DNA of 60,952 bases from an uncultured Clostridia bacterium (GTDB lineage Bacteria > Bacillota > Clostridia > Christensenellales > UBA1242): NCBI GenBank assembly GCA_944381215.1, contig CALWKF010000009.1, positions 1 to 60,952 on the forward strand, given 5' to 3'. The notes under the pieces are model-generated. The model had not been told where the DNA came from and made no database searches. It saw only the letters and a program-made list of their open reading frames with translations. The position numbers and the translations under genes were made by a program. The first letter of the stretch is position 1; every line of letters begins with the position of its first letter. Below, in pieces: positions 36,487-42,054 of this stretch.

Positions 36487-36518
36487 TAGTCGTATAGATA
36501 TAAAAAATGGAGAAAAAT

Positions 36519-37514
36519 ATGGAGAAAAACGAACAGAAAGGAGAAGAGGCTCTCACCGCTAGACAAATCGAGCACAACACCCGCGCTGAAATCATCAACC
36601 AAGAACAGCCCGTCTACGACGACGTCGATATTGTCTACAACCCTAACGCCCCGCGCTCTACACTGAACCCCGAAATAATGGAACAGTACGACCAGGCCAA
36701 GGAACCCAGCCGTGAGCAAATCAAACTCCGTGAGTACAAGCAACGCCAAATGGAAGAATTTACCAATAACTACTCCATTAGCCAGGTAATTCCTTCGGGC
36801 TGGACCACGTTCTTTAACGTCGTGAATACAATTTTCTTGACCTTGGCACTCGTCATCGCCTTTTTCGTGGCTTTCGGCCTGCTGTTTGGACTGCGCATCG
36901 GCCTAGTGCCCACAAATAGTATGGAGCCCACCATTCCCGTGGGGAGCATGGTAATTCTGCGCCCAGTCGACGGCCTCGAGAGTATCCACCTAGACGATAT
37001 CATCAGTTACCAAAAGGACGGCGTGTCATACATCCACCGCGTTGTCGACATTTCGCCAGCATCTAGCGACAGCGAGGCTCTAATCGTCGTAAAAGGCGAC
37101 AACCCAGACGTCACTGGCACCGACTACGTGCCACTGCGCATGGTCGAGGGTAAAATGGTGCTAAGTATCCCAGTATTAGGTACCGTATTCCTCTTTATTA
37201 AGGAAAATATCATCCTAACCGTCGCCGTAATACTTACAATTATTATCGCAATGCTCCTAATACGCAGTATCGTCGAGCGCAAGCACGCAAAGGCAGAAAT
37301 CGAGCGATTCCTAACCTTAAAGGCCGAGTACGAGCAAGAAGCCGAGCGCAAATTCATGGAGCAAAAGCGTAAAGAGGATGAGCAGGTGTTCAAGGAAATT
37401 ATGCGCACCCAGTATGGTACGGAAGATTCGCAAGGTGCCGTAGACGATAAGTCTATTCCAAACAACTACAATAACTCTAATAATTCCGCGGGAAATGGCG
37501 GGACCAGGGCGTAA
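36519..37514 (+). CDS. sipW: SipW-type (ER-type) signal peptidase I
   Basis: 331 residues. ATG 36519 has TGGAG upstream, which is better than the in-frame ATG 36507. Residues 1-90 are a long hydrophilic N-terminal extension, then a membrane helix (about 98-122), the catalytic serine in TNSMEPTIPVGSM, and YIHRVV with histidine in the place of the usual lysine, the mark of SipW/Sec11-type enzymes; VKGDNPDVTG follows. A second helix lies at about 220-242 and a charged coiled-coil tail ends the protein. In Bacillus SipW matures TasA and TapA of biofilm fibres. The five genes after it carry SipW-type signal peptides and are probable substrates. Confidence 0.88.
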   Translation: MEKNEQKGEEALTARQIEHNTRAEIINQEQPVYDDVDIVYNPNAPRSTLNPEIMEQYDQAKEPSREQIKLREYKQRQMEEFTNNYSISQVIPSGWTTFFNVVNTIFLTLALVIAFFVAFGLLFGLRIGLVPTNSMEPTIPVGSMVILRPVDGLESIHLDDIISYQKDGVSYIHRVVDISPASSDSEALIVVKGDNPDVTGTDYVPLRMVEGKMVLSIPVLGTVFLFIKENIILTVAVILTIIIAMLLIRSIVERKHAKAEIERFLTLKAEYEQEAERKFMEQKRKEDEQVFKEIMRTQYGTEDSQGAVDDKSIPNNYNNSNNSAGNGGTRA

Positions 37515-39148: not shown

Positions 39149-39688
39149 ATGGCGAAATTTGAAAAATTAAAAACCTATAATATACTCGTGTTTGCCTTGG
39201 TCCCGCTCTTGATTATTGCCTTGGTCGCCACTGTTACTCTCGCCGCAATGACCGACAGGGCGGAAGGAAACAATGTAATCGAAATCGCAGGCGCGGGCAC
39301 TTTGACGACCACGTTCGTGGCTGGGGGCCTGTACCCAGGGAGCACCTGCAATGTAACCATGAAGTTTGAATACAACGACACTAATATGCCAGCAGGCAGT
39401 TCCGTGGTCCTCGATGCCGACACTTTTCAAGTGACTAATATTAGGTACTCCACAAATGACGGCACCAGTTACACCCCCGTAAATTCGGGGAGCTTGGCTA
39501 CATACTTAACTTGCGTGCTCGCTAGCGATGTAACAGTGCAAAACGGCTCCTCAGCAAACGGCGTGGCCCAAATTACTGTGGGCCCTGGAACAGGTGAATT
39601 CATTGCCGTCAGCCCAGCCGACCGCCTCACATACTCCGTGACCCATGTCCAAATAGAATTTTCAATAAACGTAATATACGGCTCCTAA
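39149..39688 (+). CDS. Small SipW-type secreted protein
   Basis: 179 residues after AAAAGGAGGGTAGCAA. The helix at 11-32 ends TVTLAAMTDRAEGNN, a SipW-like site. The mature part is a beta-rich domain of about 145 residues (GTLTTTFVAGGLYPGSTCNVTMKFEYN begins it). Family and partner are not certain, but position in the locus and signal type suggest a TasA-like fibre or accessory subunit. Confidence 0.7.
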   Translation: MAKFEKLKTYNILVFALVPLLIIALVATVTLAAMTDRAEGNNVIEIAGAGTLTTTFVAGGLYPGSTCNVTMKFEYNDTNMPAGSSVVLDADTFQVTNIRYSTNDGTSYTPVNSGSLATYLTCVLASDVTVQNGSSANGVAQITVGPGTGEFIAVSPADRLTYSVTHVQIEFSINVIYGS

Positions 39689-39744
39689 TGAATAATTCGT
39701 AACAAAATGCACAAACTAGCATCGACCGAAAAGCCAAACTAAAT

Positions 39745-39990
39745 AATATTCGAGCGAAACCTCGTTAAACTAGGGGCTTCGGCCCAAATGCTCTGCTAAG
39801 CATTTAGCGGGGCTCCAAATGGGTAACCATTTGGCCGAGTGCGCGCGCGACCCAAAGTAAAATGTATAAGAGAAATCTTATAGGTGGTTCTTTTTACCAA
39901 AGGTTAAACGCAATCTCAAAAATTATCTATCGAATAAACAAGTGTGGTGTTGACGCCTTTAATTTGTAACACACCGCCGTACGGCAGTTA
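39745..39990 (+). ncRNA. Possible structured leader RNA upstream of a SipW-substrate gene
   Basis: A row of stable stems: CGAG-CGAAAC-CTCG (39751-39764), GGGC-TTCG-GCCC (39774-39785, a C(UUCG)G tetraloop), AAATGCT-CTGCTA-AGCATTT (39786-39805), CCAAATGG-GTAA-CCATTTGG (39815-39834, GNRA loop), TATAAGA-GAAA-TCTTATA (39865-39882, GNRA loop) and a GCCGTACGGC palindrome (39976-39985). No reading frame spans it. It is GC-richer than its flanks. It ends about 80 bp before the start at 40064. I do not recognise it as a known riboswitch, tmRNA, RNase P or intron. Confidence 0.6.
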
Positions 39991-40007
39991 ACAAAAGGGC
40001 ATCACTA

Positions 40008-40179
40008 AGGTATCAACTAAAGGCTTGTTTAACCCTAATTAAAACTTAAAGGAGTTTTTAAAAATGACAACGCAAAAAGCTCAATCTAAAATCAAATCAT
40101 CAACCGTTGCAATTACCGTTTTGTCTATTTTGCTAGCAATCGCTGTCGTTTCTACAATCGTATTGGCAGCGTTCACTGC
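40008..40179 (+). repeat. 172-bp inverted repeat, left arm
   Basis: Runs from AGGTATCAACTAAAGG through the ribosome site, the start codon and the whole signal peptide codons of the 40064 gene. It equals the reverse complement of 41615-41786 with one mismatch (GTCGTTTCTAC against GTCGTATCTAC). Confidence 0.93.
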
Positions 40180-40702
40180 TACACAAAAAGCAAGCACAAC
40201 TATTACGTTCGGTGGCGGGTTAACAATGACAATGAATATGTCTGCTAACTCTGACTTCCAAGCAGTTACTGATGACACAAATCAATCTGTAACAATTGAA
40301 ACAACTGGTCCATTCTCTAAAGATGATGTAACAATGCCTGCTCTACAATCTAAAACAAGTGAAGCAGCATATGTTGGTTGGCAAATCGTTTTAGACTCAA
40401 ACAACTCAGGTTGGACATATGATTCAGGCACAAAGACTTTTACTAACACAACTAAACAGTTAAAAGTAGTTATTACTACAGGTGCTGCTGTAACAGTAAG
40501 TGAAAGTGAAGATGGTGTATTCTACTTCACTGATGCTACAACTGCTAACACTTACCAAAACATTTTCGAGTCACTCGTTGTAAGTTCTACTACAGATAAT
40601 GTAAATGATATTGCTGGTGAAAGTGTTCAAATTGCTTTCAACTTCAAGGCTGAAACTGTTGCTGGTGGTGGTGTTCCTGACAATGTACAAACATTTGCTT
40701 AA
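40064..40702 (+). CDS. SipW-substrate protein A (head-on cassette)
   Basis: 212 residues after TTAAAGGAGTTTTTAAAA. The first 38 residues (MTTQKAQSKIKSSTVAITVL to the cleavage region LAAFTA) equal those of protein B at 41023-41730. After the site come conserved TITFGGGLT and then an Asn/Thr/Ser-rich beta-like mature region of about 170 residues, different from that of B. It probably forms or joins extracellular fibres, as TasA-like substrates of SipW do. Of the two cassette genes, only this one now lies behind the possible structured RNA. Confidence 0.75.
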   Translation: MTTQKAQSKIKSSTVAITVLSILLAIAVVSTIVLAAFTATQKASTTITFGGGLTMTMNMSANSDFQAVTDDTNQSVTIETTGPFSKDDVTMPALQSKTSEAAYVGWQIVLDSNNSGWTYDSGTKTFTNTTKQLKVVITTGAAVTVSESEDGVFYFTDATTANTYQNIFESLVVSSTTDNVNDIAGESVQIAFNFKAETVAGGGVPDNVQTFA

Positions 40703-41022: not shown

Positions 41023-41730
41023 TTAAGCAGATTCAACTTCACCAGTTGAAATAGTTGTCCAGTTTGCCTTAGCAACCTCTGCCTCGAGAGCGGCAGTAGC
41101 ATCAGCACCAGCGTAAACTGCTGTAATCTTTAGAGTAAGAGTAGCAGTCTCGCCACCAGTCAAACCACTAATAGCAGCAGTTGAGTAAACTGAGTTAATA
41201 GCCTGTACTAATTCAGCCTCGGTGCTTGCGTTCAAACTGCTGATAACATACCAACCGTCCAAAGCGCCAGAGCCTTCTGTAGCATTGCTGCTAGTGCCAG
41301 CATAGTTAAGAGTAGTTTCAACATCAAGAGCAGTATCTTCGTTTGGTGTTCCACCAACATAAAGGGATGCAGTACCAGTTTTCTCTAGTTTAAATGCAAT
41401 AGCAATAGCAGCTTTAGAAGTGTTTGTAATTTTAAATGAAGCAAATTGAGCACCATTTGTCAAAGCGGTTGTAGCGCCAGTAATGTCAGAACCAACAGTA
41501 CCATCACTGTCAACAGATTTAACCAACCACTTAGCAGAGGCATTCATTGTTTCATTTGATACTTGAATAGTAAGTCCACCACCGAAGGTAATGGTCTGAC
41601 TAGCCTGTCTGTTTGCAGTGAACGCTGCCAATACGATTGTAGATACGACAGCGATTGCTAGCAAAATAGACAAAACGGTAATTGCAACGGTTGATGATTT
41701 GATTTTAGATTGAGCTTTTTGCGTTGTCAT
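41023..41730 (-). CDS. SipW-substrate protein B (head-on cassette)
   Basis: 235 residues, opposite in direction to protein A, with the same ribosome site and signal peptide. The mature part starts TANRQASQTITFGGGLTIQV and contains an Ala/Thr/Glu-rich beta-like domain, with GLTGGETATLTLKITAVYAG near the end, typical of TasA/CalY-like families. It differs from A after the shared first 60 residues. It is likely secreted and processed by the SipW-type peptidase. Its upstream flank lacks the structured RNA. Confidence 0.75.
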   Translation of the reverse strand: MTTQKAQSKIKSSTVAITVLSILLAIAVVSTIVLAAFTANRQASQTITFGGGLTIQVSNETMNASAKWLVKSVDSDGTVGSDITGATTALTNGAQFASFKITNTSKAAIAIAFKLEKTGTASLYVGGTPNEDTALDVETTLNYAGTSSNATEGSGALDGWYVISSLNASTEAELVQAINSVYSTAAISGLTGGETATLTLKITAVYAGADATAALEAEVAKANWTTISTGEVESA

Positions 41731-41786
41731 TTTTAAAAACTCCTTTAAGTTTTAATTAGGGTTAAACAAGCCTTTAGTTGATACCT
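41615..41786 (-). repeat. 172-bp inverted repeat, right arm
   Basis: Reverse complement of 40008-40179 with one mismatch. The arms enclose 1435 bp that contain both mature coding regions in convergent orientation. Confidence 0.93.
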
Positions 41787-41832
41787 AAATAATCAAAATC
41801 ACCCGCAATTTTGCCCTTAAGAGGACATTGGG

Positions 41833-41947
41833 GCTGGCGCGAGAGCATTCTTTTCTAATTAAGGTAATCATTCATGCGCCAGACTTCCCGCAAGCGGGAA
41901 GGCATTCTGAGCCCGCCCCTCGAAGCCTGAGACGAAGAATCTCATCC
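41833..41947 (+). repeat. Composite GC-rich hairpin element plus REP-like repeat
   Basis: Same order of parts as 32719-32833: GGCTGGCGCGAGAGCATTC, a GCGCC arm, CTTCCCGC-AA-GCGGGAAG, then TTCTGAGCCCGCCC..GACGAAGAATCTCATCC. It fills most of the gap between the 41730 and 42086 genes. Confidence 0.75.
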
Positions 41948-42054
41948 CATCCGCTTAATATTCAATAAAATCAAATAATATACTTTTAACAAAAATAAAA
42001 TAATACACTCTTTTAACAATACAATATAATTAAATAATAAAAAAAATTTAATAA

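Follow-up and report, generated by a model that had tools for sequence, protein, structure and literature searches.

The question raised by this locus was what a long, stem-rich RNA does between two genes for secreted proteins, and whether it belongs to a known class. The window, that is, the whole stretch of 60,952 nucleotides that was analysed, lies in a genome assembly of 1.22 Mb. The leader comprised 375 non-coding bases, bounded by the upstream stop codon (39688) and the downstream ATG (40064). No open reading frame of 80 aa or more crossed this region on either strand, in agreement with the first-pass annotation, which had called it non-coding. The gene order was SipW-type peptidase, SipW-type substrate, small SipW-type protein, element, and putative major fibre gene. 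The annotation had also placed the leader between genes for SipW-type secreted proteins. This placement held, with an upstream TIGR04088 match slightly below the cut-off and an orthologous setting in the relatives. The features of the locus were as follows:

36507..37514, + strand: gene for a SipW-type signal peptidase, at the head of the gene run (TIGR02228, E 1.5e-15, over the cut-off; NF046067 SipW, E 4.8e-14, below the cut-off)
39149..39688, + strand: gene for a small secreted protein of the SipW-dependent type, directly upstream of the leader (TIGR04088, E 0.0037)
39689..39750, + strand: AU-rich stretch from the upstream stop codon to hairpin 1, seen in the sequence; candidate entry site for an endonuclease
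39751..39764, + strand: hairpin 1 (hp1), CGAG / loop CGAAAC / CUCG (locus conserved in the genus, stem swap in genome G003, covariation in the family)
39765..39772, + strand: spacer UUAAACUA, the same as the coremin spacer (invariant in 8 of 8 genus genomes; coremin has GUCCGAAGACGUUAAACUAC)
39774..39785, + strand: hairpin 2 (hp2), GGGC-UUCG-GCCC, 4 bp, the UUCG stem of the first-pass annotation (kept with changed sequence in relatives)
39790..39813, + strand: hairpin 3, 10 bp, loop GCAU (fold and three-species alignment)
39815..39834, + strand: hairpin 4, 8 bp, GUAA loop (fold and alignment, with A-U to G-C double changes)
39865..39882, + strand: hairpin 5, 7 bp, GAAA loop (fold and alignment, with double changes in relatives G004 and G001)
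39883..39889, + strand: GGUGGUU, conserved in 7 of 7 genomes at 131-205 nt downstream of hp1
40046..40066, + strand: ribosome-binding site and start codon of the fibre-like gene, seen in the sequence
40064..40702, + strand: downstream gene for a putative major fibre subunit (N-terminal hydrophobic helix, then a beta-rich protein)

The structure model of the 40064..40702 product (pLDDT 74.7) showed one helix followed by a beta-rich part. The product had no Pfam or NCBIfam match, and a fold comparison with the PDB gave no confident match. TasA was considered as its identity and rejected, since neither family nor fold matched and only the SipW-type neighbourhood and the beta-rich model pointed to it.

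The leader carried six or more stems, and weaker stems continued from 39942 on. Stems with UUCG, GUAA and GAAA loops had been described here and judged unlikely to arise by chance. They were found, as hairpins of 4, 8 and 7 bp, respectively, in addition to hp1 and the 10-bp hairpin with loop GCAU. The minimum free energy of the leader was -73.9 kcal/mol, compared with -59.7 +/- 4.8 kcal/mol for dinucleotide shuffles (z = -2.96), and 1 of 200 shuffles was as good, which bore out the judgement. The covariation analysis of homologous intergenic regions that had been proposed as a check was also positive. Pairing was conserved, and in an alignment of the window and two related species compensatory changes were present in 11 of the 43 pairs in the stems beyond hp1. 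At the 5' end of the leader, hp1, the spacer UUAAACUA and hp2 formed a defined element (39751-39785).

The leader was compared at the DNA level with 98 related genomes. One close relative matched it at 83% over the entire leader; otherwise, only a short block near 39749 was found. The 22-mer CGAGCGRAAYCTCGTTAAACTA was present in one copy each in 7 of the 9 genus genomes, with zero in the reversed control. In the seven genomes read, it always followed a gene for a protein of 180-208 aa, and the orthologue of the gene at 40064 lay 311-653 nt downstream wherever the contig continued. The eighth genome, G003, had a different stem at the same place, CGTC-CGCAAC-GACG-UUAAACUA, behind a gene for a protein of 200 aa. 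In the ninth, G008, the contig stops short of the gene, 32 nt ahead of its start codon. The element was thus present at the same place in 8 of the 8 assessable genomes of the genus. The change from CGAG/CUCG to CGTC/GACG in G003 meant that the hp1 stem was kept by compensatory change. In the seven genus sequences tested, hp2 always lay directly 3' of the spacer, with differing bases and a pairing probability of 0.72-1.0; in G003 it was weaker (CUU-GAAA-AGG, read by eye). Its loop was variable, being UUCG in the window and GUAA, GAAA or another in relatives. The hp1 loop was CGAAAU or CGGAAU in six relatives, with CGAAAU in the nearest, G004. It ended in C in the window (CGAAAC) and in G003 (CGCAAC). 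In addition, GGUGGUU (39883-39889) was kept in all seven genomes although the neighbouring leader sequence diverged. It could pair with AACUA of the spacer in all relatives, and such pairing would compete with the coremin fold described below. Both partners were invariant across relatives, hence gave no covariation signal.

The element was compared with coremin (xrRNA-C), a motif of plant RNA viruses that stalls the 5'-3' exonuclease Xrn1. Coremin requires an hp1 of 4 bp whose loop is either YGAD (4 nt) or YGNNAD (6 nt), followed by the spacer and then by an hp2 of any sequence. The Xrn1 stall site on the viral motif is the nucleotide before hp1. In the window, a 4-bp stem with covariation was followed directly on its 3' side by the spacer UUAAACUA(C) and then by hp2. 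The loop rule fitted the six relatives and 88 of 102 phage contexts (see below), and the loops of the window and G003 ended in C, not D. The likeness comprised the 4-bp hp1, a hexaloop YGNNA-, the spacer UUAAACUA and the intergenic placement, to which the genus of the window added an adjacent hp2. Unlike coremin, which is found in RNA viruses, the prokaryotic copies lay on DNA phages, plasmids and a bacterial chromosome. Their loop may end in C, and the adjacent hp2 was inconsistent in phages. The exonuclease also differs: coremin acts on Xrn1, and bacteria have RNase J instead. Based on this comparison, the leader appeared to open with a prokaryotic member, or a close mimic, of coremin. The first-pass annotation had recognised no known class and suggested a covariance-model search. 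Rfam 15 gave no match for the window or the leader, even at E <= 10, and only tRNA matches in the relatives and phage loci. To this extent the statement stood, but it did not hold for hp1, UUAAACUA and hp2, which have the coremin architecture. A minimal RNA architecture that is already known would then extend to another domain of life and another genetic setting. The literature searched, which covered subscription journals and preprints in part, contained no description of coremin from bacteria or DNA phages, and priority is not settled. The key coremin papers make no mention of phage or RNase J. Two further systems were similar in part. Flaviviral xrRNA stops bacterial RNase J1 (PMC5760640), which is like the function proposed here, but its fold is much larger and ring-like and its sequence is unrelated. 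With regard to the tmRNA pseudoknot region, CGAGCGACATCTCGTTAAACAT was present in tmRNA-like genes of the family's genus g12, whereas the window element lay outside any tmRNA.

Copies outside the genus were sought in public genomes and viral contigs, and the copy counts of these scans are lower bounds. Exact copies were found, all of them intergenic by eye. One was flanked by a T2SSF gene and a ComGC-like pseudopilin gene in a Lactobacillales MAG, one preceded a DAHP synthase gene of Thermoactinomyces, and others lay in phages. On plasmids, a version with the stem GAC/GUC was found, and the motif was therefore written as YNNN-CGRAAY-N'N'N'G-UUAAACUA. When the first stem pair was G-C and two stem pairs were left free, at least 109 viral contigs matched, compared with at least 10 for an equally specific C-G control. 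Several of the 10 control contigs were true copies too, with the stem CCTT/AAGG. Both free stem pairs were complementary in 71 of the 72 distinct contexts of the first scan. Among 58 distinct 22-mers, 88.4% of cells paired (65.6% when shuffled), and the covariation was 0.533 (0.197 when shuffled). The energy model on the window sequence slightly favoured an alternative register of hp1 (-11.1 vs -10.5 kcal/mol), but this register was rejected by the family, in which it was 57.6% paired with a score of 0.087. The covariation also bore on a reading at the DNA level. A short dyad that lies upstream of genes and has a conserved flank might be an operator or promoter, but here the arms varied and covaried while loop and spacer were fixed, which is the reverse of a dimer operator, and the same site was present in unrelated hosts. 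A DNA-level site was thus scarcely credible.

The loop was analysed in phages using the query GTC-YGNNNN-GAC-GTTAAACTA, which constrained the loop at positions 1 and 2 alone and kept the spacer fixed. A was found at loop position 5 in 101 of 102 distinct contexts. YGNNAD fitted the 88 contexts given above, and 13 of the 102 ended in C. Since the query left four inner loop positions free, this meant that the Xrn1 loop rule measured in vitro was recovered from phage genomes. Phage contig L292 carried the canonical 20-nt coremin before a scaffold-like gene. Taken together, the phage copies paired no more often directly behind the spacer than shuffled sequences did (0.39 and 0.40, respectively), indicating that many of them have no adjacent hp2, which viral coremin needs. 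About 22 nt were conserved in the motif, and phage copies had no conserved 3' partner. The C at the end of the window loop can be read in two ways: either bacterial enzymes tolerate C, or the copy in the window has lost strength. The window copy might even have decayed into an inactive remnant of an element that once functioned. CGAAAC in the BNYVV context gave no Xrn1 resistance and hardly slowed ribosomes, and the nearest relative has CGAAAU. However, the 13 phage contexts and G003 also have C-ending loops, so C may be tolerated in prokaryotes, and the remainder of the leader was under covariation. We considered a relic unlikely.

On chromosomes, the GNC-type pattern was found in 0 of 398 genomes of the phylum. 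The class and phylum search at this stringency gave no chromosomal spread beyond the genus, except for the single intergenic exact matches L089 and L095. Other candidates were rejected. Family-level matches with 3 mismatches were tmRNA genes and coding sequence, L106-L108 were chance matches in which the complementary stem was absent, and the Enterococcus plasmid matches were a GAACGAAAUCUCGUUC palindrome behind a terminator, different from the motif. On Enterococcus plasmids (L100:4001-4023 and L101:4001-4023), a terminator was followed immediately by GAACGAAATCTCGTTC, and a glycosyltransferase/C39-peptidase operon of glycocin-like type lay downstream of them. A one-mismatch copy was present outside annotated genes in 7 of 5426 E. 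coli genomes, and the one inspected (L305:2501-2521) preceded an integrase-domain gene. The phage contigs L093 and L098 had a second common conserved stretch 3' of the motif, GCATCGGTGAA...TAGTAACCGATGTAAAATAA, which is an RNA candidate.

The genomic setting of the copies was then considered. Only 15 of 140 distinct motifs, a set that includes a few genus loci, lay inside an open reading frame of at least 80 aa, compared with 81% of random positions. The median distance from the motif to the next open reading frame on the same strand was 68 nt. Capsid-scaffold Pfam families accounted for 22 of the 74 different proteins encoded downstream. By PHROG, the eight most frequent families among the downstream proteins were all head scaffolding proteins. 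Annotated examples were genes for scaffold and major capsid proteins in Streptococcus, Enterococcus and Sporosarcina phages. A SpaA-type pilin gene followed the motif on a Lactococcus plasmid. The phage gene order was portal or minor capsid genes, element, scaffold, and major capsid gene.

The motif was also found in tRNA regions of cyanophages and Chaseviridae. In cyanophages, the tRNA 3' end and hp1 were 3 nt apart. A T-arm was placed so that the 3' end of a tRNA or tRNA-like structure abutted hp1 in 15 of 140 motifs, compared with 9 of 2800 random positions; the 15 loci represent fewer independent events because some come from related phages. We regard this tRNA-flush placement as the strongest hint to a function that the anatomy alone may give. 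It might also be expected of a cleavage site or a self-cleaving RNA that matures the downstream RNA, and known phage ribozymes keep similar genomic company, namely tRNAs and scaffold genes. However, the conserved part is short and has no conserved 3' partner in phage copies, and no ribozyme family matched, so cleavage was very improbable. The tRNAs also bore on a possible action on ribosomes, in which the element would stop or delay 30S subunits, or ribosomes that arrive from the upstream gene to re-initiate, and thereby uncouple or regulate downstream translation. Viral coremin stalls scanning eukaryotic ribosomes, the hexaloop CGAAAU more than the wild type, and the element often lies 40-70 nt ahead of a start codon. 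In contrast, many copies lie before or after tRNAs, which are untranslated, and bacterial ribosomes have no cap-dependent scanning. We therefore considered an effect on ribosomes quite unlikely. As a separate observation, the phages L138, L143, L145, L149, L156 and L219 had apparent tRNA-like minihelices, consisting of acceptor stem and T-arm only, 3' of the motif.

Terminator-like hairpins were found upstream of 23 of 138 motifs, compared with 18 of 414 random positions. Together with the leader position between SipW-type protein genes and the strictly conserved loop and spacer, this would suit an RNA element bound by a regulatory protein of the downstream operon, whether that protein acts by processive antitermination or otherwise. 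The first-pass annotation had likened the leader to RNAs that control biofilm operons by antitermination. EAR (epsC RNA, RF01735) of Bacillus eps operons is also a structured RNA within a biofilm operon, but its covariance model matched 0 of 9 genomes at E <= 10, whereas the B. subtilis control was detected. The window leader likewise has a UUCG hairpin, in the place of hp2, resembling the UNCG leader hairpin on which LoaP depends (PMC12691694). Unlike that hairpin, the UUCG of the window leader changes in relatives. With EAR and the other Rfam families unmatched and the UNCG hairpin not conserved, the proposal of antitermination was not supported. In addition, the terminators lie upstream of the motif, where an antiterminator acts too late, and a single protein would have to serve phages of Firmicutes, enterobacteria and cyanobacteria. 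A protein-binding site was decidedly unlikely.

Protection of mRNA was proposed because the hp1 part matches coremin and the motif precedes phage capsid-scaffold genes and tRNAs. We think it probable that the element is a roadblock to 5'-3' decay of the RNase J type, which stabilises the mRNA of an abundant fibre subunit. The observed basis of this reading was a conserved, covarying element that follows the coremin consensus, its position at structural genes and tRNA ends, and the gene for RNase J, which was encoded in the window's own genome (E 3.6e-157). A longer transcript from the upstream genes would be cut upstream of the element. RNase J would degrade the cut end in the 5'-3' direction and stop at hp1, and the mRNA of the fibre subunit would survive. 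In both the window and the phages, a gene needed in bulk comes after genes of low need. Once the transcript had been cut upstream, a roadblock to 5'-3' decay would keep the downstream message stable. At tRNAs, a cut by RNase Z at the tRNA 3' end would put the new 5' end at hp1, the place where Xrn1 stops on viral coremin. The hosts of some motif phages (Erwinia, Pectobacterium; enterobacterial) are not known to have RNase J, so the enterobacterial phage copies would need another target. Also counting against the roadblock are the C at the end of the window loop, given that this loop failed to stall Xrn1 in the BNYVV context, the unenriched hp2 of the phage copies and the rarity of the motif on chromosomes.

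Taken more broadly, we lean slightly towards a coremin-type exoribonuclease-resistant RNA that occurs throughout tailed DNA phages and has also become established on a bacterial chromosome, protecting there the mRNA of a major surface fibre from RNase J. Eukaryotic RNA viruses and bacterial DNA viruses would then use the same minimal fold, having either converged on it or inherited it from a common source. In the literature searched, exonuclease-blocking RNAs of the coremin kind are known from RNA viruses only. If the reading is true, bacteria and phages shield chosen messages from 5'-3' decay with an RNA of 35 nt. This would account for the way in which phages, and operons for fibres or pili, express one structural gene above the level of the others in its operon. 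The coremin-type element would also be a very small portable mRNA stabiliser.

The end of the leader also belonged to a 227-nt inverted repeat, 40001-40227 (+) / 41567-41793 (-), which was 90% complementary. It spanned the leader end, the ribosome-binding site and the N-terminus of two convergent fibre-like genes. The second of these genes had a different leader, 41794-41985 (-), which was apparently structured, gave no Rfam match and did not carry the coremin element. The contigs of G004 and G001 stopped in or beside the stretch matching the repeat, and that of G008 stopped near it, at the point 32 nt ahead of the gene noted above. The repeat could bound an invertible, phase-variable cassette.
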